Positions 1 to 16,535 of a DNA stretch of 64,000 nt are shown here, one piece after another (positions within the stretch are counted from its first letter, which is position 1; the number at the start of each line of letters is the position of its first letter). Position numbers and translations under genes: made by a program. Location: assembly GCF_002218065.1 (NCBI RefSeq), contig NZ_BDUB01000001.1, forward strand, positions 4,497,118 through 4,561,117, read 5' to 3'. The notes beneath the pieces are model-generated. The model searched no databases, was not told the origin of the DNA, and saw nothing but the letters and a program-made list of their open reading frames with translations. Source of the stretch: Nodularia sp. NIES-3585. Lineage in GTDB: Bacteria > Cyanobacteriota > Cyanobacteriia > Cyanobacteriales > Nostocaceae.

Positions 1-654
1 TTTTCCGTTGTGTTAAGAGTAAAGCTAACTCTCACAAGTTTGCCAGAAAATAATTTCACTTTTGGATTGTGGTTATTTGCTGGTTTGCTTCCCTGGATTG
101 CTTTTTCAGGTGGACTAATGCAATCTGCTAGTTCGGTGGTAGGACAGCCCAATTTGGTCAAGAAGGTAGTATTTCCCCTGGCTTTGTTACCCTTGGTGCC
201 AATTTTATCGACATTCATTGAAAGTTCTTTGGGTTTAATGGCGTTGATTTTATTTGTGGCAGTACAAGCTCATACTTTACATCCTACGTTGGCGCTGTTA
301 CCCTTAGTCTGGTTAACACAATTATTGTTAACAGCTGGTTTGGGTTATTTGGCGGCGGGATTAACGGTTTTTTTGCGTGATGTTCCGCAGACACTGGGAG
401 TAACTTTAAATATTTGGATGTATTTAACACCAATTATTTATCCTGCCTCAGCAATTCCCGAAGCATGGCGAAATTGGGTATTTTGGTTAAATCCGTTGAC
501 TGCGATCGCGGAGGTTTATCGTGATTTAATTTTAGTAGGGGATGTGCAGCATTGGGGAGAATGGGGAGTTGCAAGTGCGATCGCCTTGATGATATTTTGT
601 TTTGGTTTTACCGTTTATCAGCGTTTGCGTCCGGCTTTTGCTGATGTTTTATAG
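1..654 (+). CDS. ABC-2 type polysaccharide export permease (Wzm-like), 5' truncated by window edge
   Basis: Membrane subunit of an ABC exporter for lipid-linked polysaccharide, acting in the inner membrane. The frame is open from base 1, so the real start lies outside the window; the GTG at 10 is internal. The visible 217 codons hold several hydrophobic segments and family motifs: LLPWIAFSGGL, QPNLVKKVVFP, FLRDVPQTLG and the C-terminal NPLTAIAEVYRD. This matches the C-terminal three quarters of ABC-2 permeases of the O-antigen/teichoic-acid exporter family. The next gene is the matching ATPase, about 90 bp downstream on the same strand, which supports a Wzm/Wzt pair. The exported glycan cannot be told from sequence. 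Confidence 0.9.
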   Translation, partial: FSVVLRVKLTLTSLPENNFTFGLWLFAGLLPWIAFSGGLMQSASSVVGQPNLVKKVVFPLALLPLVPILSTFIESSLGLMALILFVAVQAHTLHPTLALLPLVWLTQLLLTAGLGYLAAGLTVFLRDVPQTLGVTLNIWMYLTPIIYPASAIPEAWRNWVFWLNPLTAIAEVYRDLILVGDVQHWGEWGVASAIALMIFCFGFTVYQRLRPAFADVL

Positions 655-746: not shown

Positions 747-2102
747 ATGGGTGAGGAGATTGCAATTTCACTGAAGAATATCTCAAAATGCTATAAGCGA
801 TATGCTCGCCCGGTAGATAGACTTAAAGAAATTTTGCTACCTGGAAAAAGTTACGCGCAAGAGTTTTGGGCATTAAAGGATATTAACTTAGAGGTTACTA
901 AGAGTGCAACTTTAGGAATTATTGGTCAAAACGGATCTGGTAAAAGTACACTACTACAAATTATTGCTGGTACGTTAACCCCGACAACAGGTGAAGTGTT
1001 TGTGAATGGGCGAGTTTCAGCTTTACTGGAACTTGGTAGTGGGTTTAATCCTGAATTTACCGGAAGGCAAAATGTATTTTTCAATGGTCAAATTTTAGGC
1101 TTAAATAGAGAAGAGATAGAAACTAAGTTTGATGCAATTGCTTCCTTTGCTGAAATTGGCAGTTTCATGGAAGAGCCAGTCAAAACATATTCTAGCGGTA
1201 TGTTTATTCGATTAGCATTTTCAGTAGCAATTAATGTTAATCCAGAAGTTTTGATTGTAGATGAATCATTAGCAGTAGGTGATGGCGTTTTCGTTCATCG
1301 ATGCATGGCTAAAATTAGAGCGTTTCAAGATTCTGGGGGAACAATTTTATTTGTATCCCATGATATAGGTGCAGTTTCCCGTCTTTGCTCAAAAGCATTA
1401 TGGATTAATCAAGGTTTAATTGTAGACTCTGGCAAGCCACCTGAAGTCTGTAAACACTATCAAGGATGGGTGCATGAAGAAGTAAATAAAAGGAATCAAC
1501 TAAATACTCTTCCAATAAATGAAAAGACAACTGAATTCACTCAAAAAGTAGAAATTGATTTTAGTAAAATTACACATAAACAATTAAACGCATTTACAAA
1601 TAAGCCCTATATAGCTTTGTCTGGTTTTGAAAGGTTTGGAACAGGAAGAGCAGAGATTATTGAAGTAGCATTACTTAATGTAAATAATGAGCCTCTGAAA
1701 TTAGCATATCCAGGTGATTTAATTAAAATTAGAGTTAGTACATTTATTCATGACACAATCAGAAAGCCAAATATTGGCATGGCTTTAGTTGACCGATTAC
1801 GTACTGTTCTAGCTGGATGGAGTACTGACCTTATAGATTTAAACTTTAGTAGCTACTGGTTATCCAAATCAGAAAAAGGTACAACAGTTATTGAGTTTGA
1901 AATAGTTTGGCCAAACTTAATTGGCGGTAGCTATGCCTTAGATATTGCGTTTGCCGATGGACCAAATGATAGTAATGAAATGCTCGATTGGATTCAAAAT
2001 GCGGCTATTATCCAATCGGCTACAAACGAAATTGTGCATGGATTATTCCAATTACCTAGTACAAAAGTAAGGCTATGTGAGGAATTGCTATGTACAGGTT
2101 AA
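747..2102 (+). CDS. Polysaccharide ABC exporter ATPase with C-terminal cargo-binding domain (Wzt-like)
   Basis: Energises export of a lipid-linked polysaccharide with the upstream permease. The N-terminal 240 residues are an ABC domain: Walker A GQNGSGKST near residue 60, a TYSSGM signature near 150, Walker B VLIVDES near 168, and the SHD switch histidine. Residues about 285-445 form an extra beta-rich domain of the Wzt C-terminal type. In E. coli O9a this domain binds the capped non-reducing end of the finished glycan. At 451 aa the length fits Wzt with this domain rather than a bare 250-aa TagH-like ATPase. It overlaps the next gene by 13 bp, so the two are probably cotranscribed. Which glycan is recognised is unknown. 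Confidence 0.93.
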   Translation: MGEEIAISLKNISKCYKRYARPVDRLKEILLPGKSYAQEFWALKDINLEVTKSATLGIIGQNGSGKSTLLQIIAGTLTPTTGEVFVNGRVSALLELGSGFNPEFTGRQNVFFNGQILGLNREEIETKFDAIASFAEIGSFMEEPVKTYSSGMFIRLAFSVAINVNPEVLIVDESLAVGDGVFVHRCMAKIRAFQDSGGTILFVSHDIGAVSRLCSKALWINQGLIVDSGKPPEVCKHYQGWVHEEVNKRNQLNTLPINEKTTEFTQKVEIDFSKITHKQLNAFTNKPYIALSGFERFGTGRAEIIEVALLNVNNEPLKLAYPGDLIKIRVSTFIHDTIRKPNIGMALVDRLRTVLAGWSTDLIDLNFSSYWLSKSEKGTTVIEFEIVWPNLIGGSYALDIAFADGPNDSNEMLDWIQNAAIIQSATNEIVHGLFQLPSTKVRLCEELLCTG

Positions 2103-2641
2103 TTGAGAAATTGATTAAGCCTCAATTAGAAAAATGGTTGAAATCCTACATTGACACTTATTTTACTGAATATATGTTTCAAGGTTTCTTTGATGAGCGC
2201 ATTAAAAAAGTTATCTTAACCCAATATTTAATTTTTGGTGATTCCCAAAGATTAACATTGTCATCGACTTGTGTTGTCAATAATGCCTTATTTAACTTGT
2301 CATCTGGAAATATCTCAGTTGGTGATTATGTTTTTTTTGGACATAATGTTAGTCTAATCACTGGAACTCATAATTATACAAAATTTGGATTGGAAAGAAT
2401 GCAAGACTTTCCTGACGAGGGAAATGATATATTCATTGATGAAGGTACTTGGGTAGCCAGTAATGTCACAATTATTGGACCTTGTAAGATTGGTAAGCAT
2501 TGCGTGATAGCCGCAGGTTCCGTAGTTAAAGGAGATATTCCCAGTTATCATATAGTTGCAGGAATTCCGGCTAAAACTATTAAGGAAATTGAGTCTCAAT
2601 TTCAATATAGCGATTCTCACCTCAATGAGGGACAGCAATAA
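2090..2641 (+). CDS. Hexapeptide-repeat acyltransferase (WbbJ/LbH family)
   Basis: Probable O- or N-acetyltransferase that decorates a sugar. The 183-aa protein shows left-handed beta-helix hexapeptide periodicity from about residue 65 to 165, the catalytic-type GTHNY histidine segment near residue 90, and the typical C-terminal VVKGDIPSYHIVAGIPAKTI signature. The ATG lies inside the end of the ABC ATPase gene (13-bp overlap), which indicates translational coupling. The last ten codons lie within a 118-bp repeat that recurs after the next gene, so the extreme C-terminus may have been replaced. Family is clear; acceptor and acyl group are not. Confidence 0.88.
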   Translation: MYRLIEKLIKPQLEKWLKSYIDTYFTEYMFQGFFDERIKKVILTQYLIFGDSQRLTLSSTCVVNNALFNLSSGNISVGDYVFFGHNVSLITGTHNYTKFGLERMQDFPDEGNDIFIDEGTWVASNVTIIGPCKIGKHCVIAAGSVVKGDIPSYHIVAGIPAKTIKEIESQFQYSDSHLNEGQQ

Positions 2642-2727
2642 TTATTCGACTACAGATGTAGGCGCGTTAGCAACTTCCTCCAGGTACACAGATAAATCCG
2701 TACTTCAGCAGATTAGGAAATCCTATA
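2610..2727 (+). repeat. Upstream copy of a ~120-bp direct repeat flanking the giant glycosyltransferase gene
   Basis: By eye this segment aligns with 7261-7384 in the same orientation. Shared blocks include CACCTCAATGAGG, AATTATTC, GTACA-AGATAAATC and CAGCA--TAGGAAA in the same order and with nearly the same spacing. The copy begins inside the end of the acetyltransferase gene and runs into the spacer. The shared core ACAGATAAATC also occurs in the repeats at 25121 and 28331, so this may belong to a wider family. Confidence 0.75.
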
Positions 2728-2868
2728 ACTAACGATATTGATATGTATGGTACAAGTTATATCGATACTGTACAATATTTTAATATAAAAAACAGCACAT
2801 AAATTTTATATACTTGTTCAATTTACACATATACAAATACAGAAACATTATCTGGTTGAGGTGAGAGG

Positions 2869-5800
2869 ATGAAATTGAGATATGTACAAGTTTTAGATGC
2901 ACTAGATTTTGGCGATGCCGTATCAAATCAAGTTATTAGACTTCATCAAAATTTGCTGACAAAAGGTGAAAATTCACAGATATTTAGTAAATATGCAGAC
3001 TATCGAGTGGAAAATTACCGACAACATATTGCCCAATTTTATATAGATGAACAGACCATAATATTACATCACTTTGCTGGTTACTCAGAAATAGCAGAAG
3101 AAATATGCTCTTTACGTGGCTACAAAATTCTTGTTTATCATAATATTACTCCGCATACATTTTTTGAAGAAGGAACGCAATTATATAAATTTTGTAACCA
3201 GGGCAGATATCAGCTAAAGCAGATTATCGGTAACTATAATTTAATTTTGGGAGATTCTATTTTTAATTGCTTAGAGGCAGAACAATTAGGAGCCAAGCTA
3301 GTCAAAGAACTCCCAATCATAGTGCCAGATGTTTCTGTGATACCCCTATCTGAAAAATTAGTGGAGAATCTACGAAGCAAAATTGATAAAGTTTGGCTGT
3401 TTGTAGGTAGAATAGCTCCTAATAAAAGACAAGACCTTTTAATAGAAATCTTTGCTCAATATATGAAGTTATATCCAGAAAAAAAACATCATTTATATTT
3501 AGTTGGTAAATATTTCGATGATGACACTTACTACAATCATATTTGCCAGAAAATCTATGGCTTAGGCATTGACAAGCAAGTTACTTTAACTGGAAAGGTT
3601 GAGGATGAAGAACTTCCTGCTTATTACAAAGCCGCAGATATATTTATTTGCATGAGTGAGCATGAAGGATTTTGTGTTCCTATTGTAGAAGCATTTAACC
3701 ATCAAATACCTGTAGTTGCTTATGCTGAAACAGCAGTGGCAAATACTATGGGCAAAAGTCATGGTGTTCTAAAAAGTCTTGATATAGAAACTGCTGTTCA
3801 AAAAATTCACTCGGTATTTACAGAATCTTGGTTTAAAGAAGAACTAATAAATCATGGGCTGAAACAAGCTAATCGTTTTACTTTTGAGGCTGTAGGCAAA
3901 CGTTTTGATGAAATTATAGATAAATTTATAATTTGTAAAAAGCAGGAATCCCCCTTACGTGTTTCAGTTGTTATTTGCACTTACAATCGCAGCGATTACC
4001 TCAAAAGATGCTTAAATTACCTCAAAGATCAAGATTATCCGCATTTTGAAGTCATAGTAGTCAATGGACCTTCAACGGACGATACTATGGAAATACTCAC
4101 AACTGAAAATAATATAAAGGTAGTTCAAAACCCGCTACGTAATCTTTCAGTTTCTCGAAACTTGGGTATTCAGCACGCTTCAGGAGAAATTGTAGCTTTT
4201 ATAGATGATGATGCGCTGCCTTATGATAATTGGCTTGTAGAAATTGTTAACCGTTACAATGAATTACCATGCAATATCGTAGGTGTAGGTGGTAGAACAT
4301 TTTTTGCTAATCAATTCCAATTTCAGTTTGAGTTTGGTATTATTGATAGTTTTGGTAATCATTTAGAAATTGCATACAATGATCCTAGAAAGAATAATTC
4401 TAAATATTATCGCCATCTCTTAGGGACTAATTGCTCTTTTCGTAAGGATGCATTACTTACCATAAATGGATTTGACGAGCAATATGATTATTACCTTGAT
4501 GAAACTGATCTAGCATTGAGGTTACAGGAAAATTTAGGTCTTATTGTTAATGCAAATCAAGCTTATGTAAGACATGAATTTGCACAAAGTCATAATAGAT
4601 TGGGAAAATATAATTTTAACTGGTTTGTTATTGGTAAAAATACTGCTTATTTTGGTTTAAAAAATAGCAAGGACTTTTCTATAGCTCAACGAGTATGGAT
4701 TACAGCTAAAAATATCCTACGAGATAGATGTTGGTCATTTTTTCTGGCTTGGCATCAAAGCGATTTAGGCTTTGAAGAAGCATTTTACTACTCTTATCGT
4801 ACAGTGTTAGGTGCTTTACGTGGTTATTATGATTCATGTTTTCCACGTAAGCTCGGACAGAATTTGAACTCTATAAATAAAGTTTTTCTTCCCTATCTTG
4901 GCAAAGAAGATCATATTTATGCAAAGGAAACAAACTCTTCAGTGCAAAAAATGCATATTTTAATCATTTCTCAAGAATTTCCTCCCAACTCTTTTGGTGG
5001 AATTGGGGCATACAATCAAACCCTTGCTAGGGAATTAATTCAGATGGGGCATGAAGTTACTGTTATCAGTCGTGGATTAAGAGACTGCACTCATGTGATT
5101 GGGTTGTTTACTCACATCGAAGTCGCTTCGGTAGGAAATTATGACGACTTACCCAATTATCCTATTCTTTCCAAAAACCTTAATTGGGCAAGGAAAGTAG
5201 CAGAAATAGCAAAAGAGGTGCATCGCACTCGTCCTATTAGCGTGATTGAATCTGCTCTTTGGGATTTTGAAGGATTAGGTATTTTAATGCTACGTCCTGA
5301 ATTTAAAGTGCCACTAATAGTCCGCTTAGTAACTCCACTGCTCGTGTCTATCAAGATGAATGGGTGGCAAATAAATGATGATTTCCAACTTTGTGCAGAA
5401 CTAGAAAAAGAATTGATTAGCTGTGCTGATATTGTTATTGGTATTAGTAATAGTATTAAAGATACTGTAGTATCAACCTATAATTTAATTCCTGATAATC
5501 GCTGGCTGGTTCAACCATTAGGCGTACAGCCTTGGCCTACCTACACAAATGTAACCAACTATGGCGAACTTCCCAAAGACCTCAAACGTGGTTCAACACA
5601 AATTCTTTTCATTGGTCGCCTAGAATCTCGTAAAGGAATTGATATATTTTTACAGGCTTTAACGCTGATTATGCCGAACAATCCTGACATATTTGTTTGG
5701 ATTGCAGGCAATGATATTGAAGGTTGGACAGAGAAAGCTAGTAAACTCTTCAATCGAGATGTGCTATCTCGCGTACAGTTTCTGGGTAAGGTTGACGAAG

Positions 5801-7254
5801 AACGGCGTGAATTACTTTACGCTAATTGCGATTTTCTAGTATTTCCGTCACGCTACGAATCTTTTGGGCTTGTACCCTTAGAAGCAATGGTCTACTGTAA
5901 GCCTGTTATAGGCGCTAGGTCTGCATCTATTCCAGAAGTGATTATAGATGGTGAGTGTGGGCTTCTTTTTGAACCTAATAACTACCAGAATTTGGCAGAA
6001 AAAATTTTACTGCTTGTTAATGATCAAACTCTTAAAAATCATTTGTCTCAAGGTGCTAAAAAAAGAGTAGAAGTTCTTTCAGCCAGAAATATGGCAAAAG
6101 CAAGCGTCAATATTTACCAATCATTGATGGATGATAATGCTGATTTTAAAGTATTACAACATCCAATCATTCAAAAAATTCTTACTGAAATTGCCGACAA
6201 TGAAAAGCAAATGCTTGATATAAAAGATCATGCTTTAAATAATCATGAAAAAATAAATCAAAAGAATATTTTAGACTTAAATAACTACAATGAACCTCCT
6301 AATAACTCTGCTTGGAGTGTGACTACACCCAGAATTATCAGATGGAGTTGGCTCAACTCTATTCTTAATAACTTCTTAGTACCAAAAATGGTAAAATTTA
6401 TTAATTCAGTTTTATTTGAATCAATGCAGAGGCAGACATATATAAACAAAATACTACTTAATAGTCATGAAAGCAATTTTAAGCAGCAAGAAATAGATAT
6501 ACTTAAAACACGCATGGATACATTTTCAAAAAGCATTGAAGAACTAAAAGATAGTCTTAATTATCAATTGAATATACTTCACGAAAGTATGATCAATGAA
6601 AAACAAAGTTTAGACAATTATTTTCAAGAAATCAAAGCTATTTCCAATAATATACAAAATTTAAATATTATTGAAAATGAGATGACTAGAAGCGAATTTA
6701 ATTATCAGTTCAAATCTCAAAATGTTCTCACTCCAGTCATAATCAACGCCGAAAAAATCAAAGAATATCAGAATAATTTACGGCTCAACCTTGGTTGCGG
6801 GAATAAACTGATGCCAAATTACATTAATATTGACCAGAGGCAGTTAAGTGGGGTAGATGTAATAGCTGAAATTATAAATTTACCTTTTGAAAAAGGCTCT
6901 GTATCTGAAATCTATTCTGCACATATTATTGAACATTTTACAGAATTTGAAGTCGTCAATCATATTTTACCTTATTGGTATCAATTAATAAAAAGTAATG
7001 GTAAACTCATTGTTATTTGCCCTGATGCAGAATCAATGATGATTGAATATGTGAAAGGTAACTTTCCTTGGGAAAATCTGAGAAAAGTAACTTATGGAGG
7101 ACAAGATTATCAAGGTAACTATCATTACAATATGTATAATCCAGCATCGTTGAGCCAAATCTTGTCCAGTTGTGGATTTAAAGATGTGACAATAGTAGAT
7201 AAAAAACGGGTTAATGGTTTATGTTACGAAATGGAAGTTCATGCTCTTAAATGA
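2869..7254 (+). CDS. Multidomain GT4-GT2-GT4-coiled coil-methyltransferase
   Basis: A 1461-residue cytoplasmic protein with four apparent catalytic domains. Residues 1-350 are a GT4 domain (VGRIAPNKRQ near 177; EX7E motif EHEGFCVPIVEA near 264). Residues about 363-640 are a GT2 (GT-A) domain starting VSVVICTYNR with the acidic site IDDDA near 444. Residues 694-1080 are a second GT4 domain starting MHILIISQEFPP, with IGRLESRKG near 914 and ESFGLVPLEA near 995. Residues about 1085-1290 are Asn/Lys-rich and helical, with a coiled-coil stretch around 1200-1275. Residues 1304-1461 are a class I SAM methyltransferase (LNLGCGN motif I, then a class-typical IIEHF motif). Position in a Wzm/Wzt locus points to export-polysaccharide synthesis, possibly with chain-length control and methyl capping; that role is inferred. 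The ATG is preceded by GAGGTGAGAGG. Confidence 0.9.
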   Translation: MKLRYVQVLDALDFGDAVSNQVIRLHQNLLTKGENSQIFSKYADYRVENYRQHIAQFYIDEQTIILHHFAGYSEIAEEICSLRGYKILVYHNITPHTFFEEGTQLYKFCNQGRYQLKQIIGNYNLILGDSIFNCLEAEQLGAKLVKELPIIVPDVSVIPLSEKLVENLRSKIDKVWLFVGRIAPNKRQDLLIEIFAQYMKLYPEKKHHLYLVGKYFDDDTYYNHICQKIYGLGIDKQVTLTGKVEDEELPAYYKAADIFICMSEHEGFCVPIVEAFNHQIPVVAYAETAVANTMGKSHGVLKSLDIETAVQKIHSVFTESWFKEELINHGLKQANRFTFEAVGKRFDEIIDKFIICKKQESPLRVSVVICTYNRSDYLKRCLNYLKDQDYPHFEVIVVNGPSTDDTMEILTTENNIKVVQNPLRNLSVSRNLGIQHASGEIVAFIDDDALPYDNWLVEIVNRYNELPCNIVGVGGRTFFANQFQFQFEFGIIDSFGNHLEIAYNDPRKNNSKYYRHLLGTNCSFRKDALLTINGFDEQYDYYLDETDLALRLQENLGLIVNANQAYVRHEFAQSHNRLGKYNFNWFVIGKNTAYFGLKNSKDFSIAQRVWITAKNILRDRCWSFFLAWHQSDLGFEEAFYYSYRTVLGALRGYYDSCFPRKLGQNLNSINKVFLPYLGKEDHIYAKETNSSVQKMHILIISQEFPPNSFGGIGAYNQTLARELIQMGHEVTVISRGLRDCTHVIGLFTHIEVASVGNYDDLPNYPILSKNLNWARKVAEIAKEVHRTRPISVIESALWDFEGLGILMLRPEFKVPLIVRLVTPLLVSIKMNGWQINDDFQLCAELEKELISCADIVIGISNSIKDTVVSTYNLIPDNRWLVQPLGVQPWPTYTNVTNYGELPKDLKRGSTQILFIGRLESRKGIDIFLQALTLIMPNNPDIFVWIAGNDIEGWTEKASKLFNRDVLSRVQFLGKVDEERRELLYANCDFLVFPSRYESFGLVPLEAMVYCKPVIGARSASIPEVIIDGECGLLFEPNNYQNLAEKILLLVNDQTLKNHLSQGAKKRVEVLSARNMAKASVNIYQSLMDDNADFKVLQHPIIQKILTEIADNEKQMLDIKDHALNNHEKINQKNILDLNNYNEPPNNSAWSVTTPRIIRWSWLNSILNNFLVPKMVKFINSVLFESMQRQTYINKILLNSHESNFKQQEIDILKTRMDTFSKSIEELKDSLNYQLNILHESMINEKQSLDNYFQEIKAISNNIQNLNIIENEMTRSEFNYQFKSQNVLTPVIINAEKIKEYQNNLRLNLGCGNKLMPNYINIDQRQLSGVDVIAEIINLPFEKGSVSEIYSAHIIEHFTEFEVVNHILPYWYQLIKSNGKLIVICPDAESMMIEYVKGNFPWENLRKVTYGGQDYQGNYHYNMYNPASLSQILSSCGFKDVTIVDKKRVNGLCYEMEVHALK

Positions 7255-7517: not shown

Positions 7518-8492
7518 ATGACATCTAGAAAAGCCCTAATCACGGGACTAACTGGACAAGATGGTTCCTATCTCGCCGAAATCCTCCTAACCAAAGGTTA
7601 TCAAGTATTCGGACTAGTTCGCCGTTCCAGCACCAGCAACCTAGAACGGATTAGCCACCTTTCCCGCGATGTTCAAATTGTACCCGGTGACCTCCTAGAC
7701 CAATGTTCATTAATGGACGTAATTACAGACTCACAACCGGATGAAATCTATAATCTCGCTTCTCAAAGCTACGTCCCCCTTTCTTGGACTCAACCATCCC
7801 TCACGGCAGAATATACAGCCCTTGGTGTTTCCCGTCTTTTAGAATCAATTCGGCGCTGCAAACCTGATGCTAAATTTTACCAAGCCTCTAGTAGTGAGGT
7901 TTTTGGTCAACCGGACGAATCACCCCAAACTGAACGCACCGCTTTTCGTCCTCGTAATCCCTATGGTGTGGCTAAAGCTTACGCCCACTGGATGACTGTT
8001 AACTATCGGCAAAAATATAATATCTACGGCTGCTGTGGTATTACCTACACTCACGAATCTCCTCGACGAGGTACAGAATTTGTATTCCGCAAAATTACGT
8101 ATGCAGCAGCCCAAATCAAACTAGGTTTAGCAAATGAATTAAAATTAGGTAATTTAGATGCCTGTCGTGATTGGTGCTATGCCAAAGATGCTGTTTATGC
8201 CATGTGGCTAATGTTACAACAAGAGCAACCCGACGACTATATTATTGCTAGTGGTGAAACTCACTCGGTTAGAGAACTCGTTGAATGTGCTTTTAACTGC
8301 GTTGGTCTAAACTGGCAAGATTATGTTTCAGTTGACCCCGCATTTTACCGTCCTGATGAACCAGTGCAGTTAGTTGGTTCTGTGGATAAAATTAAAACTC
8401 AGTTAGGTTGGAAACCTCAATATTCTTTTGAGCAAATGGTTGAGTTAATGGTTAATTCTGACCTGAATAAATTAAGCAGTAAAGCTGGCTAA
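7518..8492 (+). CDS. gmd: GDP-mannose 4,6-dehydratase
   Basis: Converts GDP-D-mannose to GDP-4-keto-6-deoxy-D-mannose, the precursor of GDP-fucose, GDP-rhamnose and related deoxyhexoses. The 324-aa short-chain dehydrogenase/reductase begins with the family's nucleotide-binding loop TGLTGQDGSYLAE. It contains SSSEVFGQ with the catalytic Ser/Glu region, the active-site YGVAKAYAHW (Tyr-x3-Lys), and the Gmd-diagnostic HESPRRGTEFV-RKIT. It is slightly shorter than the ~370-aa enterobacterial enzyme, as is usual for compact bacterial Gmd. Its place among glycosyltransferases implies it supplies the donor sugar for the exported glycan. No partner reductase or epimerase is visible here. Confidence 0.88.
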   Translation: MTSRKALITGLTGQDGSYLAEILLTKGYQVFGLVRRSSTSNLERISHLSRDVQIVPGDLLDQCSLMDVITDSQPDEIYNLASQSYVPLSWTQPSLTAEYTALGVSRLLESIRRCKPDAKFYQASSSEVFGQPDESPQTERTAFRPRNPYGVAKAYAHWMTVNYRQKYNIYGCCGITYTHESPRRGTEFVFRKITYAAAQIKLGLANELKLGNLDACRDWCYAKDAVYAMWLMLQQEQPDDYIIASGETHSVRELVECAFNCVGLNWQDYVSVDPAFYRPDEPVQLVGSVDKIKTQLGWKPQYSFEQMVELMVNSDLNKLSSKAG

Positions 8493-8652: not shown

Positions 8653-9957
8653 ATGAGGATATTTATAGATTGTACTCATACGGCAAAACATAAATATAAA
8701 AATACTGGAATTCATCGGGTAGTTCGTGAACTTACATCTGAATTATCAAAAATAACTTTAGATAAACCTAATATCGAAATAGTTCCAGTTATGTTTGATA
8801 ATCACTTTATGCGTAGAGTGGTTAATCTTAATAGCCAAGAATATAACTATTTTACTAAAAACAATTTTTATGCTAATGCCATAATTAAAATTTTTAGAAA
8901 ATTGCAAATAGTTTTTTATAGGGTTAAAAATAGATTTTTAACTTTATTAATACCTATATTTGATGGGCTAACTTTAAATGTTAATAAAAAAAATGTTGTG
9001 CTTGAGTTTGAAAATTCGCCAATACAACCAGAAGATATTTATATAATAGCTGATGCTAATTGGGATTTACCTAAAACATACTACAGATTTTTACAAAACT
9101 TACGCAAAAATAAAGTTATTATTGTACTTATATCTTATGACCTGATACCAATAAAGTTTCCAGAATTTTCTTCCAAAAACTTTACTCAAGCTTTTACTCT
9201 ATTTTATCAAGAGTATTCTAGCTTATGTGATAAAGTGCTATGTATATCCAAAAATAGTGCTGAAGATTATAAAACTGCAATAAAAGACGGTATATTAGCT
9301 AATTCTAATCCTGATTTAATAGTGAAAAGCTTTCGTTTAGGATGTAACTATTCTTTTCATAATGTTTCACAAGATAGGAATGTGGAGGATAATGATTTCA
9401 AACCAGAATTCAGAGAAATTCCAAATAAACAATATATTTTGGTAGTGGGCAGTCTAGTACCTCATAAAAATATCAAAACTATTATATCCGCGTTTGATTT
9501 ATTATTAAGTTGCAATTATCAAAACATAAATTTAGTTTTTGCAGGTAATAAAGGTTGGCATTCAGAAACTGATAGTTTGATAGAATCTCATGAGATGTGC
9601 GGTAAATTCATACATATACTAGGCTCAGTTACCGATGTTCAGCTAAGAGTTCTCTATGAAAATTGCTATTGTTTAGTTCAAGCTTCTTTCTATGAAGGAT
9701 TTGGATTACCAGTTGTAGAAGCATTACAAAATCGTAAACCTGTTGTTGCTAGCAATGGCGGTTCTTTACCTGAAGTTGGTGGTGATTTCTGTATATATTT
9801 CGATCCTACTCAACCAATAGAACTATACCAAGCTTTACAAAAGCTACTTGATTCAGAAACTTACTACAATCATTTAGTAGATCGGATCACAAATGAGTAT
9901 AAACCATTTTTATGGAGGGAATCTGCTGAAGAGTTTCTTGATCATTTGTGTAATTAA
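8653..9957 (+). CDS. GT4 family glycosyltransferase
   Basis: A 434-aa GT-B fold enzyme that probably transfers a sugar from a nucleotide donor onto the growing polysaccharide. The donor-binding half starts near residue 258 with YILVVGSLVPHKN. The EX7E motif YEGFGLPVVEA lies near residue 350, followed by NGGSLPEVGGD. The N-terminal half is AT-rich and less conserved. The ATG follows a weak AGGGA box. About 160 bp separate it from gmd and 31 bp from the next GT4 gene, consistent with one transcription unit. Specificity is unknown. Confidence 0.88.
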   Translation: MRIFIDCTHTAKHKYKNTGIHRVVRELTSELSKITLDKPNIEIVPVMFDNHFMRRVVNLNSQEYNYFTKNNFYANAIIKIFRKLQIVFYRVKNRFLTLLIPIFDGLTLNVNKKNVVLEFENSPIQPEDIYIIADANWDLPKTYYRFLQNLRKNKVIIVLISYDLIPIKFPEFSSKNFTQAFTLFYQEYSSLCDKVLCISKNSAEDYKTAIKDGILANSNPDLIVKSFRLGCNYSFHNVSQDRNVEDNDFKPEFREIPNKQYILVVGSLVPHKNIKTIISAFDLLLSCNYQNINLVFAGNKGWHSETDSLIESHEMCGKFIHILGSVTDVQLRVLYENCYCLVQASFYEGFGLPVVEALQNRKPVVASNGGSLPEVGGDFCIYFDPTQPIELYQALQKLLDSETYYNHLVDRITNEYKPFLWRESAEEFLDHLCN

Positions 9958-9988
9958 ATTAATTAGCTTACTATAAAAAACTAGAAAA

Positions 9989-11059
9989 TTGTTAGTCAAT
10001 CTATCTTTTCTTTCCACAAAACCCACGGGTATATCGACTTACGCCTTAAATCTTCTCCCGAATCTAAAATTTTCCCAACTAACATTACTCACTTCGGAGA
10101 ATATTCCGAATTATGACTGTTACCCAATTCCATATAATTTAACACCAGACCAAGGTATAAAAGGTCATTTACGCCGCTTATTGTGGACACAGTTCCAGCT
10201 ACCACAAATCTATAAAAACCTAAAATCTAGGCTGTTATTTTCGCCTTTACCGGAAGCACCCCTTAATAGTAACTGTCGTTTTGTGGTCATGTCTCATGAC
10301 TTAATACCGTTGCGCTTTCCTAAACGCTTCTCGCCGCTAACACCTTACCATCGTTACTACATACCTCAAGTTCTCAAACAAGCGCAACACATAATTTGTA
10401 ACTCCCAAGCTACAGCGCAGGACATTATCGATTTTTACCAAATTCCCGCCAGCAAAATTACGTCCATTCCTCTGGCTTATAATCGCCAACATTTTAGACC
10501 CCTCAAAGAAAAATTGGTAGAAAATCGGCGTTATTTTCTTTACATTGGAAGACACGATCCCTATAAAAACCTCAACAGACTCATAGCGGCTTTTGCAGCG
10601 CTACCAAATAGGGGCGAATATGAACTATGGTTAGCAGGTCCCATTGATGCGCGTTATACTCCAACTTTAGAAACGCAGGTTGCAGAATTGGGAATAACTG
10701 AACAAGTAAAGTTTCTCAACTATGTATCTTATAGCGAATTACCTAAGATTATTAATGGTGCGATCGCTCTGGTTTTTCCGAGTCTCTGGGAAGGCTTCGG
10801 TTTCCCGGTTCTCGAAGCCATGGCTTGTGGGACTCCGGTAATTACCTCTAACCTGTCGTCTCTCCCAGAAGTGGCTGGTGATGCGGCGATTTTAATCAAT
10901 CCCTACAACATAGGAGAAATTACTGAGGCTATGCAGATTATAGCTGAGGATATGCAAGTGCGATCGCACCTTTCCACCCAAGGTATAAATAGAGCAAATC
11001 AATTCAGTTGGGAAAAAACAGGACTTGCTACTGTCGAAGTTTTATCACGCTATTTATGA
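9989..11059 (+). CDS. GT4 family glycosyltransferase (mannosyltransferase-like)
   Basis: Second stand-alone GT-B enzyme of the locus, 356 aa. The start is a TTG at 9989 in a window bounded by an upstream in-frame stop; no ATG is available before the conserved [18 protein letters not shown] segment. Conserved features are [15 protein letters not shown] near residue 187, the EX7E motif [18 protein letters not shown] near 263, and [14 protein letters not shown]. This profile resembles bacterial mannosyl- and rhamnosyltransferases, but donor and acceptor cannot be fixed. It is less AT-rich and contains HIP1 sites, unlike the preceding glycosyltransferase. Confidence 0.88.
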
Positions 11060-11552: not shown

Positions 11553-13094
11553 ATGCTCAATTCTGAACCACCTGAATCTCAAGATGCTGCTGAAATTGAA
11601 CAGCAAGAGCAAAAATTTAAACCAACTCCAAAGCAACGTTGGCCGTTAATTCTAGGCATCGTCCTGTTAATTGCAGGTGGTGGCTTTGGCTGGCGCTGGT
11701 GGCAAAATAGCTTTGCGGGAAATGCACCTGGCGATACAGCAGCGGCTGGTCAACCAATGGGAATTCCTGTGAAGTTAGCCACTGTAGAAACTGGAACGAT
11801 AGAAGACAGTTCAGTAATTAGTGGCTTTTTAGACGCTCCTGGCTCAGTAGCAATCAAGCCAGAAATTGACGGGCGAATCAGTCAAATTTTATTTAAAGAA
11901 GGCGATCGCGTCCAGAAAGGGCAAGTTATAATTCGTCTGCAAAGTGACGATACCCAAGCCCGCCTACGACAAGCCAAAGCATCATTAGACCGAAGCCAAG
12001 CCCGACTTGCAGAACTCAAAGCAGGTACACGTCCCGAAGAAATTGCTCAAGGTAAAGCCAGATTAGCTCAAGCCGAAACTCGCCTGAAAAATGCCCAAGG
12101 TGGAGCGCGTCCCGAAGAAATTGCTCAGGCTAAAGCTCAAATTGAGGTAGCTAAATCCGATATGGAATTGGCACAGTCTAGAGGTAAGCGATACCAACAA
12201 TTAAGAACAGAAGGCGCTGTTTCCCAAGACCAATTAGAAGGATTTCTCGGAGAACAAAGAAGCGCTGAAGCTAGGCTGGAGGAAGCTCAAAGACGGCTCG
12301 ACCAACTCCGCAAAAGCAGAAGCTCTGATATTGATGAACTAGCGGCGGCTGTAGAACTAGAAAAGCAAAACCTCAGACAACTAGAGAATGGACCTCGCCT
12401 AGAAGAAATTGCCCAAGCCCGTTCTCAAGTTCTCGAAGCCGCCGCTCAAGTCCAGGTAGCCGAAGTTCAACAGAAATACACAACTGTTGTCGCGCCGCTG
12501 ACTGGTATTCTTGGTGATATCCCAGCGAAAGTGGGAGATTTTGTCAGCCAAGGAGACGAACTCACCACACTGAATCAAAATGACACTTTGGAATTGAATT
12601 TAGCTGTCCCTTTCAATGAAGCCGAAAGGTTGCGTGTGGGATTACCAGTACAAGTACTAGATGCTGAAGGCAAACCCGCCGCCACAGGTAAAGTAAGTTT
12701 TATCTCTCCTAATATCAGTATCAATACGCAGAATATTTTAGCTAAAGCAGCCTTTCCCAATACCAGGAACCAAATACTCAATCGCCTGAACGTACAAGCC
12801 AAAGTTATCTGGGATGAACGCCCAGGAATCTTAATTCCCACGGTCGCAATATCTCGCATGGGTGGACAGACATTTGTGTTTGTAGCCCAAGCGCCGACAG
12901 AATCCAAACCAGGAATGCCAAACTTGATAGCTCAACAAAAACCCGTGCAGTTGGGAGCCATTGAAGGCAATAATTATCAAGTTCTTGAAGGACTGGAAGC
13001 TGGTGAGAAAATCGTTGTTTCTGGCATTCTGAATCTCACCAATGGTGCGCCTATCATGCCAGCACCAGAAGGAATGGGTAATGGGAAACCCTAA
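11553..13094 (+). CDS. RND efflux membrane-fusion (periplasmic adaptor) protein
   Basis: Periplasmic adaptor linking an RND pump to an outer-membrane channel (HlyD/AcrA family), 513 aa. A single transmembrane anchor lies at about residues 30-46 (WPLILGIVLLIAGGGFGW). It is followed by a beta-barrel/lipoyl half motif (GRISQILFKEGDRVQKGQVI near 108), a long alpha-helical hairpin at about 130-300, and the second lipoyl half (VVAPLTGILGDIPAKVGDFV near 312). The hairpin contains three copies of a repeat with core RP/L-EEIAQ, each followed by a helix. The RND pump gene follows about 255 bp downstream. Substrates are unknown. Confidence 0.92.
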   Translation: MLNSEPPESQDAAEIEQQEQKFKPTPKQRWPLILGIVLLIAGGGFGWRWWQNSFAGNAPGDTAAAGQPMGIPVKLATVETGTIEDSSVISGFLDAPGSVAIKPEIDGRISQILFKEGDRVQKGQVIIRLQSDDTQARLRQAKASLDRSQARLAELKAGTRPEEIAQGKARLAQAETRLKNAQGGARPEEIAQAKAQIEVAKSDMELAQSRGKRYQQLRTEGAVSQDQLEGFLGEQRSAEARLEEAQRRLDQLRKSRSSDIDELAAAVELEKQNLRQLENGPRLEEIAQARSQVLEAAAQVQVAEVQQKYTTVVAPLTGILGDIPAKVGDFVSQGDELTTLNQNDTLELNLAVPFNEAERLRVGLPVQVLDAEGKPAATGKVSFISPNISINTQNILAKAAFPNTRNQILNRLNVQAKVIWDERPGILIPTVAISRMGGQTFVFVAQAPTESKPGMPNLIAQQKPVQLGAIEGNNYQVLEGLEAGEKIVVSGILNLTNGAPIMPAPEGMGNGKP

Positions 13095-13096
13095 TA

Positions 13097-13124
13097 GTAA
13101 TTCGTAATTCGTAATTCGTAATTG
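13097..13124 (+). repeat. STRR heptamer repeat (GTAATTC) x4
   Basis: Four head-to-tail copies of GTAATTC (the last ends in G), starting two bases after the stop codon of the adaptor gene. This is a short tandemly repeated repetitive sequence of the type common in heterocystous cyanobacteria. Confidence 0.9.
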
Positions 13125-13349
13125 AATAATTTTTGGTCTCATAATTTGAGATTGTATATCCTACAGCCCTTTGCTAATAAATGAAGTACACATATTAATA
13201 TTATGAATATTGTGTGTTGGTCATCTTGCCCACCTTTGTGTACCTCACTCAGATGAAATGTGCTGTAAATGGAAAAATCCCAATTTAAAATCCCAAATTG
13301 GTTGACTAATTCCTAACTACCAATTTCTGTTTACCCATTTCTCAAATCT

Positions 13350-16300
13350 ATGTTTATTGATTTCTTTATTAAACGGCCAGTTTTTGCGACAGTTTGTGCA
13401 TTTATTGTGCTGTTATTAGGATTGATTTGTCTTCCCACACTGCCCATCGCGCGTTTCCCAGATATTGCTCCCACTCAAATCAACGTCACCGCCAACTTTA
13501 GCGGAGCTAGTGCTGAGGATGTAGAAAGTGGTGTAACGAACATCTTGGAAAGGCAAATCAACGGCATTCAAGGTATCCGCTATATTACTTCTAGTAGTAG
13601 TAACGATGGCTCTACTAACATTACAGCTACCTTCGATTCATCCCGAAATTCTGATATTGCGGCTGTGGATGTGCAGAACCGCGTTTCCGTTGCCCAACCG
13701 CAACTTCCAGAAGCGGTACAACGCACGGGTGTTCGTGTCTCGAAGCAATCAAACAATATACTCTTAGGACTTGGTTTATTTGCTGAGAATGATGAATACG
13801 ACAATATATTTTTAAGTAACTATGCCGACCTTTATTTAGCAGATGCCTTAAAAAGAATCAAAGGTGTTGGTGATGTCAGAATCTTTGGCGAACGTCGTTA
13901 TGCAATGCGGCTATGGTTAGATCCAAATCGCCTTGGTAGTCGGGGGCTAACTACTGCGGATGTAGCCAATGCCCTAGCGGAACAAAACTTACAGGTCGGT
14001 GCAGGTAGCATTGGTCAAGAACCTGCTCCAGAAGGACAAAGATATCAAATTGATGTCCGGGCTGCTAGTAGATTAGTAGAACCATCAGAATTTGCCGAAA
14101 TTGTCCTGAAAACTAACGACGATGGCACATTAATCAAGCTTAAAGATGTTGGTAGAGCCGAACTAGGAGCCGAAAATTACAACTCATTTTTGCGATATCG
14201 CGCCAAAGATGCTGTAGGTTTAGGTATTTATCAGCTTCCTGGGAGTAACGCCTTAGATGTGGCGCGGGGAGTTAGGGAAGAAATGGCACGACTGGCTCCT
14301 AATTTTCCGCCGGGAGTACAGTATGAAGTAGCCTTTGACACCACCCGCTTTGTCGAAGAGTCGATGTCAGAAGTAGTCAAGACTCTAATTGCCGCAGTTA
14401 TACTGGTTGTGATTGTGATTTTTGTCTTCTTGCAAGACTGGCGAACGACTTTAATTCCCGCCTTGACTGTTCCTTTGTCTCTGATTGGGACATTTATTTT
14501 TGCCAGAATTTTTGACTTTTCCATTAATAGTTTGACCTTATTTGGTTTGACTTTAGCATCTGGGATGGTGGTAGACGACGCGATTGTTGTAGTTGAGCAG
14601 ATCAGCCGTTTTATCCAAGATAAAGGCATGAGTCCTCGCCGAGCCGCCAGTGAATCAATGGCTGAACTCTTTGGTGCCGTAATTGCTACTTCCTTGGTGT
14701 TGATGGCGGTATTTATCCCTGTGGCGTTTTTTCCGGGAACTACTGGCGCACTTTATCGGCAATTTGCCCTGACTATCGCCTTTTCTATTGTGATTTCTAC
14801 GTTTCTGGCGTTGACCCTGACACCTTCGTTGTGTGCCTTACTGCTACGTCCAGGACAGCAAACTACAGGTTGGTTGGGTCGGTTTTTTGATCGAGTTAAT
14901 CAGGTACTCGACTCGGTACAACGCAGCTATGAGCGATCGCTTCACTTTCTCATCCGCTTCAAAAACATTATCATTGGATTATTCATCGTCTCCTTGGGAA
15001 TGACGGCTTGGCTGTATATCTCAGTACCTACCGCCTTTCTCCCCGACGAAGACGAAGGCTTTTTCATCACACTCATCCAAGGGCCGCAAGGAGTTTCACT
15101 GCAATATACCAGTGATGTCATTGCCCAGGTAGAAAAACAAATCTTAGAAATTCCTGAAGTCGTGGGAACCTTCGCTGTTGGCGGCTTTAGTTTTAGTGGT
15201 AACACTGCAAATAACGGGATTATATTTACCACCTTAAAACCTTGGGGAGAACGCTCACGACCAGACCAATCAGTACAGGCGATTCTCGGTAAATTACGAG
15301 GGCAATTATTCGCCATTACCGAAGCCAGAGTCTTTCCTGTAAATCCACCACCTATTCAAGGATTGGGTAACTTTGGCGGCTTCGAGTTTCAACTCCAAGA
15401 CCAAAGAGGTAATAGTGGCTTAGAAAGTTTAGTCCAATCAATGGGTCAATTGCTTGGTCGCGCCAACCAAACACCAGGATTACAAGCTGTATTTAGCACT
15501 TTTGCCGCAGAAACACCACAATTGCTGGTAGAAGTAGACCGGAATCGAGCCAAATCATTGCAAGTTTCCATAGATGATATCTTCCGGACACTGCAAACAG
15601 CTTTGGGTTCTCAATATGTCAATGATTTCAATCTCCAGCAGCGTAATTATCGAGTTTATATCCAAGCTGACCAACAGTTTCGTTCTAACCCCAAAGATAT
15701 TGGTCAACTATCTGTGCGTTCTCAAACCAATCGCATGATTCCTTTGAGAAACTTAATTACAACGACTTCTGTTGTCGGGGCGCAAACGATTAATCACTAT
15801 AATCTATTTCGCTCCATTGCAATCAATGGTTCTGCCGCTCCCGGCTCTAGTTCTGGAAAAGCGATTCAGGCAATGGAAAACTTAGCTGAAGAAATTTTAC
15901 CCCCTAGTTTTGGTTATGAGTGGTCTGGAACCGCATTAGAAGAAATAGAATCTGGCGGTTTAGCCCCGATTATCTTTGGTTTAGGAATTGTCTTCGTCTT
16001 TTTAGTGCTAGCTGCTCAGTATGAGAACTATATAGACCCCTTAATTATCCTGTTATCAGTGCCTTTAGCAATTTTCGGCGCACTTGTAGCTCAATCAATG
16101 CGCGGTTTTCCTAATGATGTTTACTGTCAAATCGGTCTAGTCATGTTGATTGGTTTGGCGAGTAAGAATGCGATTTTGATTGTGGAATTTGCCAACCAAC
16201 TGCGCGATGAAGGGCTGTCTATTACTAAGGCGGCTGTAGAGGCTGCACAAGGGCGTTTACGCCCGATTTTGATGACAGCCTTTTCTACGCTTCTGGGTAT

Positions 16301-16535
16301 TTTTCCCTTAACTATTGCCACAGGTGCAGGTGCGGGAAGTCGTCTGTCTTTGGGAACTACTGTATTTGGCGGGATGTTAATTGCTACTTTTTTGAGTTTG
16401 TTTGTGGTGCCAATTTTGTATATTGTGATTAAAACGACTACAGCAAGTTTGTTTAAACCAAATCGCCATCAAATGGAACTGGATACAGGTTCAGATCGAA
16501 AAGCTGTTACATTCTTGTCAGAAAATGATGATTGA
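13350..16535 (+). CDS. RND efflux pump, AcrB/HAE1 family
   Basis: Proton-driven inner-membrane exporter, 1061 aa, the full length of the family. It opens with the typical first membrane helix (FIDFFIKRPVFATV). The TM4 proton-relay Asp pair is present in ASGMVVDDAIVVVEQ near residue 410, and the TM10 Lys in GLASKNAILIVEFANQ near 935. Two large periplasmic loops lie between TM1-2 and TM7-8. With the upstream adaptor it forms a two-gene efflux system; the outer-membrane channel (TolC-like) is not in the window. Presence of both relay elements argues for an active pump. Substrate class (drug versus solvent or lipid) cannot be told. Confidence 0.95.
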   Translation: MFIDFFIKRPVFATVCAFIVLLLGLICLPTLPIARFPDIAPTQINVTANFSGASAEDVESGVTNILERQINGIQGIRYITSSSSNDGSTNITATFDSSRNSDIAAVDVQNRVSVAQPQLPEAVQRTGVRVSKQSNNILLGLGLFAENDEYDNIFLSNYADLYLADALKRIKGVGDVRIFGERRYAMRLWLDPNRLGSRGLTTADVANALAEQNLQVGAGSIGQEPAPEGQRYQIDVRAASRLVEPSEFAEIVLKTNDDGTLIKLKDVGRAELGAENYNSFLRYRAKDAVGLGIYQLPGSNALDVARGVREEMARLAPNFPPGVQYEVAFDTTRFVEESMSEVVKTLIAAVILVVIVIFVFLQDWRTTLIPALTVPLSLIGTFIFARIFDFSINSLTLFGLTLASGMVVDDAIVVVEQISRFIQDKGMSPRRAASESMAELFGAVIATSLVLMAVFIPVAFFPGTTGALYRQFALTIAFSIVISTFLALTLTPSLCALLLRPGQQTTGWLGRFFDRVNQVLDSVQRSYERSLHFLIRFKNIIIGLFIVSLGMTAWLYISVPTAFLPDEDEGFFITLIQGPQGVSLQYTSDVIAQVEKQILEIPEVVGTFAVGGFSFSGNTANNGIIFTTLKPWGERSRPDQSVQAILGKLRGQLFAITEARVFPVNPPPIQGLGNFGGFEFQLQDQRGNSGLESLVQSMGQLLGRANQTPGLQAVFSTFAAETPQLLVEVDRNRAKSLQVSIDDIFRTLQTALGSQYVNDFNLQQRNYRVYIQADQQFRSNPKDIGQLSVRSQTNRMIPLRNLITTTSVVGAQTINHYNLFRSIAINGSAAPGSSSGKAIQAMENLAEEILPPSFGYEWSGTALEEIESGGLAPIIFGLGIVFVFLVLAAQYENYIDPLIILLSVPLAIFGALVAQSMRGFPNDVYCQIGLVMLIGLASKNAILIVEFANQLRDEGLSITKAAVEAAQGRLRPILMTAFSTLLGIFPLTIATGAGAGSRLSLGTTVFGGMLIATFLSLFVVPILYIVIKTTTASLFKPNRHQMELDTGSDRKAVTFLSENDD

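Follow-up and report, generated by a model that had tools for sequence, protein, structure and literature searches.

That a polymerase, a ruler and a chain terminator can share one polypeptide is already known from WbbB and from ORF6 of the Klebsiella pneumoniae O7 locus (PMC11231755). In WbbB, from K. pneumoniae O12 and Raoultella, polymerase glycosyltransferases (GTs) and a coiled-coil ruler lie on one chain with a terminator, an N-terminal 3-deoxy-D-manno-oct-2-ulosonic acid (Kdo) transferase, and the ATP-binding cassette (ABC) transporter of that system exports terminated chains only (PMC11231755). ORF6 joins a methyltransferase, a coil and two GT modules; the methyltransferase is N-terminal and accompanied by a kinase, giving a methylphosphate cap, the GT modules are of family GT2 only, and cyanobacterial orthologues of the N-terminal part have been reported (PMC11231755). 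In Escherichia coli O8/O9a, where the polymerase WbdA and the terminator WbdD are separate proteins and the cap enzymes of WbdD are N-terminal, chain ends are methylated or phosphomethylated, Wzt carries a cargo domain, and WbdD forms a rod of about 200 Å whose length shifts the chain length (PMC5082667, PMC3482155). WsaE of Geobacillus stearothermophilus, encoded beside Wzm/Wzt, has an N-terminal methyltransferase and two rhamnosyltransferases on one chain and makes a methyl cap; its methylation in vitro is independent of chain length, so that no ruler was shown (PMC2943079). Here we compare with these systems a locus of the cyanobacterium Nodularia sp. NIES-3585, which encodes a protein of 1461 amino acids (aa) in a window of 64,000 nucleotides (contig NZ_BDUB01000001.1, positions 4,497,118 to 4,561,117, forward strand). 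All coordinates below are window positions, and all features are on the + strand.

Open reading frames (ORFs) and Pfam matches give this protein (2869..7254) the order GT4-GT2-GT4-anchor-coil-methyltransferase. The first GT4 module (2869..3933, residues 1-355) has its EX7E motif at 266-274; a search restricted to residues 1-364 finds Glycos_transf_1 at E 4.7e-23. The GT2 module (3958..4668, residues ~364-600) matches Glycos_transf_2 at E 1e-28 and carries FIDDD at 444 (DDD 446-448), and the second GT4 module (4939..6138, residues 691-1090) has EX7E at 997-1005 and its best Glycos_transf_1 stretch at 907-1066. The catalytic motifs of the GTs and the S-adenosylmethionine (SAM) motif of the methyltransferase are intact. 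A first-pass annotation made from the sequence alone had described such a protein near Wzm and a cargo-domain Wzt, and ORFs, Pfam and motifs confirm it. Two points need correcting: the start of wzm lies outside the window, on its upstream side, and wzt is separated from the fusion by a gene for a hexapeptide acyltransferase.

As in WbbB and ORF6, GTs, coil and putative terminator lie on one polypeptide with the coil between. It differs from both, and from WsaE, in the position of the terminator: the methyltransferase is C-terminal here and in 6/6 orthologues, whereas the terminators of those proteins are N-terminal. Relative to ORF6 the order is reversed and the kinase is missing; between coil and methyltransferase, Pfam and the module boundaries show no further domain and hence no WbdD-type kinase. 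Among the matches listed in a search of titles and abstract openings of the open-licence literature, none described a version with a C-terminal methyltransferase, which is weak evidence of absence.

We think it fairly probable that the 1461-aa protein both polymerises and terminates an ABC-exported, O-antigen-like surface polysaccharide, with the coil as ruler and a methyl cap that Wzt reads. Going by protein families and locus, the three GT modules would extend a lipid-linked glycan at the membrane, where a conserved amphipathic segment would hold the protein chain. The helical spacer, probably an oligomeric rod, would keep the C-terminal methyltransferase off the membrane, and only a glycan long enough to reach that domain would be methylated and stop growing. 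The neighbouring acyltransferase, to judge from its pairing with the Wzt type, would probably acylate at or near the same end. By homology, the C-terminal domain of Wzt would then bind the modified end, with Trp415 at the methyl-stacking site, and Wzm/Wzt would export the chain. The end that is exported would thus probably bear a methyl group and, in this strain, probably an acyl group as well.

The methyltransferase and a helical spacer with a coil-like score sit on the same chain. The class I SAM methyltransferase domain (6736..7251, residues 1290-1461; Methyltransf_11 and profile matches) keeps the SAM-site motif LNLGCG at 1306 and D1322, as the annotation had expected, and LGCG is invariant in 13/13 aligned methyltransferase sequences, our own included. 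A profile of 12 sequences, comprising five orthologues and seven relatives, matched methyltransferase chains in the PDB with a best E of 7.8e-7. The spacer (6454..6672, residues 1196-1268, 73 aa) is free of both Pro and Gly and has the highest score, 1.51, in a COILS-like scoring (predicted segment 1199-1275); by comparison, residues 1-1090 and the anchor each reach at most 1.14, residues 1091-1150 reach 1.31 and residues 1269-1461 reach 1.42. Hydrophobicity along the spacer has its strongest period at 3.60, or at 3.55 with other segment bounds, closer to 18/5 than to 7/2, and 10/1000 shuffles were as strong. The spacers of 6/6 orthologues likewise show helical periods, 3.60-3.64, equalled by 0 to 12 of 1000 shuffles.

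At the spacer end away from the methyltransferase lies an aromatic and basic amphipathic segment (6319..6453, residues 1151-1195), which has a constant length of 45 residues in 6/6 orthologues and for which we infer a membrane-anchor role. Outside the fusion its best match was E 4.7e-4 in 291 genomes of the phylum and 8.3e-4 in 208 of the family; the six of these weak matches in longer frames that were inspected proved to be unrelated proteins.

The whole fusion is rare. It was found in 5/217 family genomes, our own included, at E <= 1e-100, and a search with its GT part through 386 genomes from across the phylum matched our own genome alone (E <= 1e-90); a plasmid collection searched at E 1e-40 gave no match. 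Six orthologues are complete (our own, Cyanomargarita, Chrysosporum, Calothrix, Nostocales LEGE 12452 and a Pseudanabaenaceae metagenome-assembled genome), and a seventh, from Leptolyngbyaceae, is cut near a contig end. In this last locus (L048) two wzt genes with different cargo domains (1394-2548 and 8971-10242) lie upstream of the cut fusion. Across the six complete proteins the first GT4 module measures 354-355 residues, the second 400, the anchor 45 and the methyltransferase 192-196; the GT2 length is 330-337 in five and 381 in one, and a poorly conserved linker is 48-62. The spacer is the most length-variable of the conserved modules, with 73 residues in our protein, 143 in Cyanomargarita, 72 in Chrysosporum, 144 in Calothrix, 165 in LEGE 12452 and 137 in Pseudanabaenaceae. 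Constant GT4, anchor and methyltransferase lengths around a coil of variable length are what a ruler model predicts. Mean pair identity is 63-70% for the GTs, 63% for anchor and methyltransferase and 28% for the spacer. The coils of two orthologues contain in-frame tandem repeats (21 bp x 4.1 and 33 bp x 4.3); none was found when our own spacer was searched for them. The ratio of nonsynonymous to synonymous substitution rates (dN/dS) is 0.06-0.22 for the methyltransferase in 9/15 pairs, the other six giving no value, which indicates purifying selection; for the spacer it is 0.39-0.65 in computable pairs. In three of the loci an extra 256-aa methyltransferase follows the fusion (L043 12719-13489, L045 12695-13465, L046 12751-13521); it is absent from that position in the window.

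We looked at the same chromosomal locus in relatives. In four genomes of the same genus the fusion was not found at E <= 1e-60, and a shared frame (ArsA-like gene, Wzm, Wzt, Gmd and GT4) surrounds a different cassette; we therefore took Wzm as the bait for a survey. Wzm of our own type occurs in 111/208 family genomes, giving 112 loci (G414 has two); dropping two without Wzt and two with a contig-cut Wzt left 108 loci from 107 genomes, annotated with profiles seeded from the same loci. A methyltransferase-coil protein lies within eight genes at 84/108 loci, and in 107/108 Wzt extends at least 120 residues beyond its ATPase domain. On chains that combine methyltransferase, coil and GT, the coil lies between the other two in 12/12, in either direction: 11 were found by the survey profiles, and the twelfth (G478) has the methyltransferase at 1-212, the coil at 235-386 and, by Pfam, a GT from 617. 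The order is methyltransferase-coil-GT, the reverse of ours, in 9/12, and a motif of the SKFW anchor type follows the coil in 6/9. That the coil keeps its middle place whichever way the chain runs is again what the ruler model predicts, though the twelve chains are related and do not count as independent cases. Two further chains with methyltransferase and GT (G001, G004) have no coil of 40 residues, and both loci encode a separate methyltransferase-coil protein. That our fusion is unique can be dismissed, since other one-chain forms occur at the same locus. The first-pass proposal of polymerase, ruler and cap enzyme in one chain thus stands as to module order; such fusions are already known from WbbB and ORF6 and recur at this locus.

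Terminators that are separate proteins show 14-residue units, or two heptads, in their coils rather than 11-residue ones; the period is 3.45-3.55 in 82/95 coils, a figure biased towards that range because the coils were detected with a heptad matrix. In G001 and G004 (loci L113 and L116) Wzt type and terminator are very similar, and the anchor motif lies 42 residues (3 x 14) further on in G004. One survey protein, G528, looks to us like the O7 ORF6 type.

The other half of the proposal concerns the exporter. The wzt gene (747..2102) encodes 451 aa with ABC_tran and Wzt_C matches; Wzt_C (PF14524) follows the ATPase domain at residues 295-435 (E 2.5e-23, 83.1 bits, cut-off 30.4), as in a cargo-binding Wzt. 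The PDB chains nearest to it are 8dku and 7k2t, the latter being Aquifex WzmWzt (PMC9445017). The Aquifex aeolicus cargo domain belongs to the same family as ours. In that domain Trp362 is the residue that stacks on the methyl group of the cap, and with Leu in its place binding of lipopolysaccharide is essentially lost (PMC9445017). In our alignment, where the Aquifex chain is numbered one above the paper, Trp415 of our Wzt (codon TGG, 1989..1991) falls at this position, which lends support to the reading of a methyl cap. Ala, Asn and Asp occupy in our Wzt the positions of Aquifex His350, Asp354 and His355 (His350 and trap-loop residues, which contact the glycan end); the sugar that carries the cap, or its context, is therefore probably not the same as in Aquifex. 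The earlier suggestion that Wzt recognises a methyl-capped end accordingly gains from Trp415 and needs amending in that the end is probably acylated as well.

The residue at the aligned position varies with the predicted cap. We clustered Wzt_C from 106 loci (the second G414 copy and one short Wzt were left out) by single linkage at 45% identity and compared the clusters with the genes after wzt; each cluster amounts to one lineage, so that the effective n is ~16 rather than 106. The residue is Trp in 66/66 loci of six methyltransferase-cap clusters, including 11/11 of our own type, Tyr in 18/18 of a double-methyltransferase cluster, Cys in 2/2 of another methyltransferase cluster and Phe in 6/6 of an amino-sugar cluster. 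Arg occurs in 2/2 of a sulfotransferase cluster and in 2/2 of a cluster with a methyltransferase-kinase-looking protein, whose kinase-like motif is our own reading of the sequence. Among the ten loci in the five clusters left unassigned, the residue is Ile, Leu, Lys, Met or Trp. The E. coli O9a cargo domain, 2R5O (PMC6286764), comes from a system with a methylphosphate cap (PMC3482155). It has Arg at this lid position. The pattern fits 5HNO less well, which we take to be the Kdo-reading domain of O12 and which has Gln there with Arg adjacent. A methylphosphate cap for our own chain was rejected, given the lack of a kinase domain and the Trp lid residue, and on sequence grounds it is unlikely. 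In three loci of one cluster (L125, L126 and L210; Wzt_C cluster 7), coil proteins have an N-terminal domain largely unrecognised by Pfam, and the lid residue is Lys in 3/3.

Wzt appears to be exchanged along with the cap genes. In 11/11 family loci with our own Wzt_C type a hexapeptide acyltransferase is first after wzt (weaker hits G544, G108 and G498, 240-243 aa, and G429, 163 aa, are left out of the hexapeptide count), and each of the 11 encodes a coil protein with a C-terminal methyltransferase. The family of that methyltransferase differs, with 3 fused MTa versus 8 separate MTc (MTa to MTg are our own labels); our methyltransferase is 23-31% identical to four MTc members. A constant acyltransferase beside a varying methyltransferase family is the reason for thinking that the recognised end is probably also acylated in these loci. 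Other clusters go with a double methyltransferase (18/18), a 225-aa methyltransferase (10/11) or APS (adenosine 5'-phosphosulfate) kinase (2/2), and the amino-sugar cluster with an aminotransferase (6/6) after an N-acyl-type hexapeptide or N-formyltransferase. The clearest case is the pair G002 and G014. Over 1188 residues of anchor and GTs the two share 95% identity, yet their Wzt_C domains share 25%, and where the cap domain of G002 is a methyltransferase, that of G014 is a sulfotransferase accompanied by an APS kinase gene. Such cases suggest that the export pump is swapped along with the cap enzyme so that the cap is recognised.

In G014 (L118, 10795-16150) the APS kinase gene follows wzt and is itself followed by a sulfotransferase-coil-GT4-GT2-GT4 protein; in G328 (L213) an APS kinase gene also follows wzt, and the contig ends within a protein whose N-terminal part is similar. 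Proteins of this type are likely to be sulfate-capping terminators. The six loci of Wzt_C cluster 5 (L122, L149, L152, L161, L166 and L201) have an aminotransferase and a hexapeptide or N-formyltransferase, then a GT2-coil protein, and likely make an amino-sugar cap, with acyl and formyl variants under one Wzt type. More tentatively, and with slightly less than even confidence, we propose that this single locus is a plug-in capping system, in which a coil-borne distal enzyme and Wzt are exchanged and one cargo-domain residue reads the chemistry of the cap. The exchanged enzymes would be a methyltransferase, a methyltransferase-kinase, a sulfotransferase with an APS kinase gene, or GT2 with aminotransferase and N-acyl- or N-formyltransferase; the residue would be Trp where the cap is methyl, Arg where it is an anionic sulfate or methylphosphate, and Phe where it is an acylated amino sugar. 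The literature search described above listed no match on a sulfotransferase ruler protein or a lid-residue code, with the same weakness as evidence of absence.

Several results weigh against the reading of our protein as polymerase and capping terminator. Searched whole against Pfam, it gave no methyltransferase match up to E 0.01, and residues 1305-1461 alone match Methyltransf_11 below the Pfam cut-off (E 6e-4, 20.8 bits versus 21.2). The coil prediction is modest, with a spacer period of 3.55-3.64 rather than 3.5. By the criteria used, 24/108 loci have no methyltransferase-coil protein, and a methyltransferase of another family is found in 8/11 loci that share our Wzt type. The first-pass picture of the fusion beside a cargo-domain Wzt is upheld in that wzt adjoins 6/6 complete orthologous loci, our own included (in Calothrix the wzm in the fetched stretch belongs to a second pair further along), and that Wzt_C is present at 5/6; it fails in Chrysosporum, where the fusion adjoins a 243-aa Wzt without Wzt_C and the one Wzt_C match of the genome is on another contig. 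A hexapeptide match (E 1e-3) is absent from the fetched Chrysosporum and Pseudanabaenaceae fusion loci (2/6). In two proteobacterial relatives with GT4-GT2-GT4, from Cupriavidus and Sphingomonas (38% identity), the chain has neither coil nor methyltransferase after these modules, and a polymerase of this kind can thus do without them; nearby genes encode ABC-ATPase-like proteins whose 217 and 219 aa leave no room for Wzt_C, in neighbourhoods that look capsule-export-like when read from the sequence. Biochemical work on these proteins did not turn up in the open-licence literature search.

Methyltransferases of the same family match in 62/386 genomes, many as short frames of ~200 aa, and related ones also occur in large GT proteins with no Wzm/Wzt match in the cyanobacterial stretches fetched, a further point against our reading, as fusion alone is then not diagnostic of capping. 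Together with the poor conservation of the spacer (28% pair identity, dN/dS 0.39-0.65), this would suit a methyltransferase that decorates repeat units along the chain, with the spacer as a flexible linker and chain length set in some other way. We regard that explanation as unlikely: it does not sit well with a coil between cap enzyme and GTs in 12/12 fused chains at the locus, with helical periodicity kept in all six spacers, or with a Wzt type that follows the cap genes and keeps the methyl-stacking Trp.

The pairing of Wzt with cap genes could also arise merely because they are neighbours on one recombining segment, with no recognition of the cap by Wzt_C. For a nearest-neighbour test, 22 unclassified ('other') loci were removed from the 106, and cap class was predicted correctly in 81/84 by Wzt_C, 79/84 by the ATPase part of Wzt and 36/84 by Wzm; with neighbours restricted to Wzm identity < 0.85 the figures were 78, 79 and 9 of 84. 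That the ATPase part predicts cap class about as well as Wzt_C does, and correlates with the methyltransferase given Wzm (0.57), is the last of the points against us, and physical linkage of these adjacent genes could explain part of the pairing. In Aquifex, Tyr233 of the Wzt ATPase domain also contacts the glycan (PMC9445017). Across the 84 loci with a methyltransferase-coil protein, the partial correlation of Wzt_C with the methyltransferase, given Wzm and the ATPase part, is 0.26 (0/999 permutations as high), against 0.06 for Wzt_C with the GTs given Wzm, ATPase part and methyltransferase (19/999 permutations). Moreover, polymerases just downstream differ within our own Wzt type, and in most clusters the residue at the stacking site agrees with the cap chemistry that is predicted. 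Linkage as the whole explanation seems to us improbable, to about the same degree as decoration along the chain.

Least credible, and in our view very improbable, is that termination and the export tag are really due to the acyltransferase, with the methyltransferase acting earlier or as an accessory: its place directly after wzt in all 11 loci, beside differing methyltransferase families, would fit, but no hexapeptide match (E 1e-3) occurs at the Chrysosporum and Pseudanabaenaceae fusion loci, the latter with a Wzt_C 48% identical to ours and the aligned DW motif present, each of the 11 loci has the methyl-site Trp and a coil protein with a C-terminal methyltransferase, and the acyltransferase chain carries no ruler.

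The remaining genes of the window frame the fusion. The 3' part of wzm, the ABC permease, lies at 1..654 (ABC2_membrane E 3.8e-17); the window edge cuts the gene, which is complete at 285 aa in the longer fetched stretch (L009 9797-10654), its first codon 204 bases upstream of the window. The hexapeptide acyltransferase (2090..2641, 183 aa; Hexapep E 4.2e-10) overlaps the end of wzt with its start and is WbbJ/WcaF-like, below cut-off. After the fusion come a GDP-mannose 4,6-dehydratase-like gene (7518..8492; GDP_Man_Dehyd E 2.4e-121; TIGR01472 389.7 bits, cut-off 415), presumably for donor supply, and two separate GT4 genes. The first of these (8653..9957; Glycos_transf_1 E 1.4e-28) also lies 3' of the fusion in three orthologous loci, with the same gene start in L043, L044 and L046 (the L046 copy is cut at the contig end). 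The second (9989..11059; Glycos_transf_1 E 8.7e-36) is kept at the locus in the same-genus genomes, with matches of 657-687 bits in L113-L116. Beyond the cluster, at 11553-16535, are what read as HlyD-like and RND-type (resistance-nodulation-division) efflux genes, the same as in Chrysosporum (L044); they were not found in the ~19 kb fetched for L113-L116.

How an exporter senses a finished polymer is known from few enterobacterial systems and Aquifex. At a single cyanobacterial site, coils of naturally differing length occur together with different cap enzymes and with cargo domains to match, including a near-identical polymerase that carries a methyltransferase in one species where another species has a sulfotransferase, and a natural ruler-length pair inside one genus (L113/L116). 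If sulfate capping by the G014 sulfotransferase-coil-polymerase holds true, it would be a kind of terminator not met among the literature matches listed. The ruler model and a readable cap code would become directly testable at this site, and cap chemistry could then be predicted from sequence.

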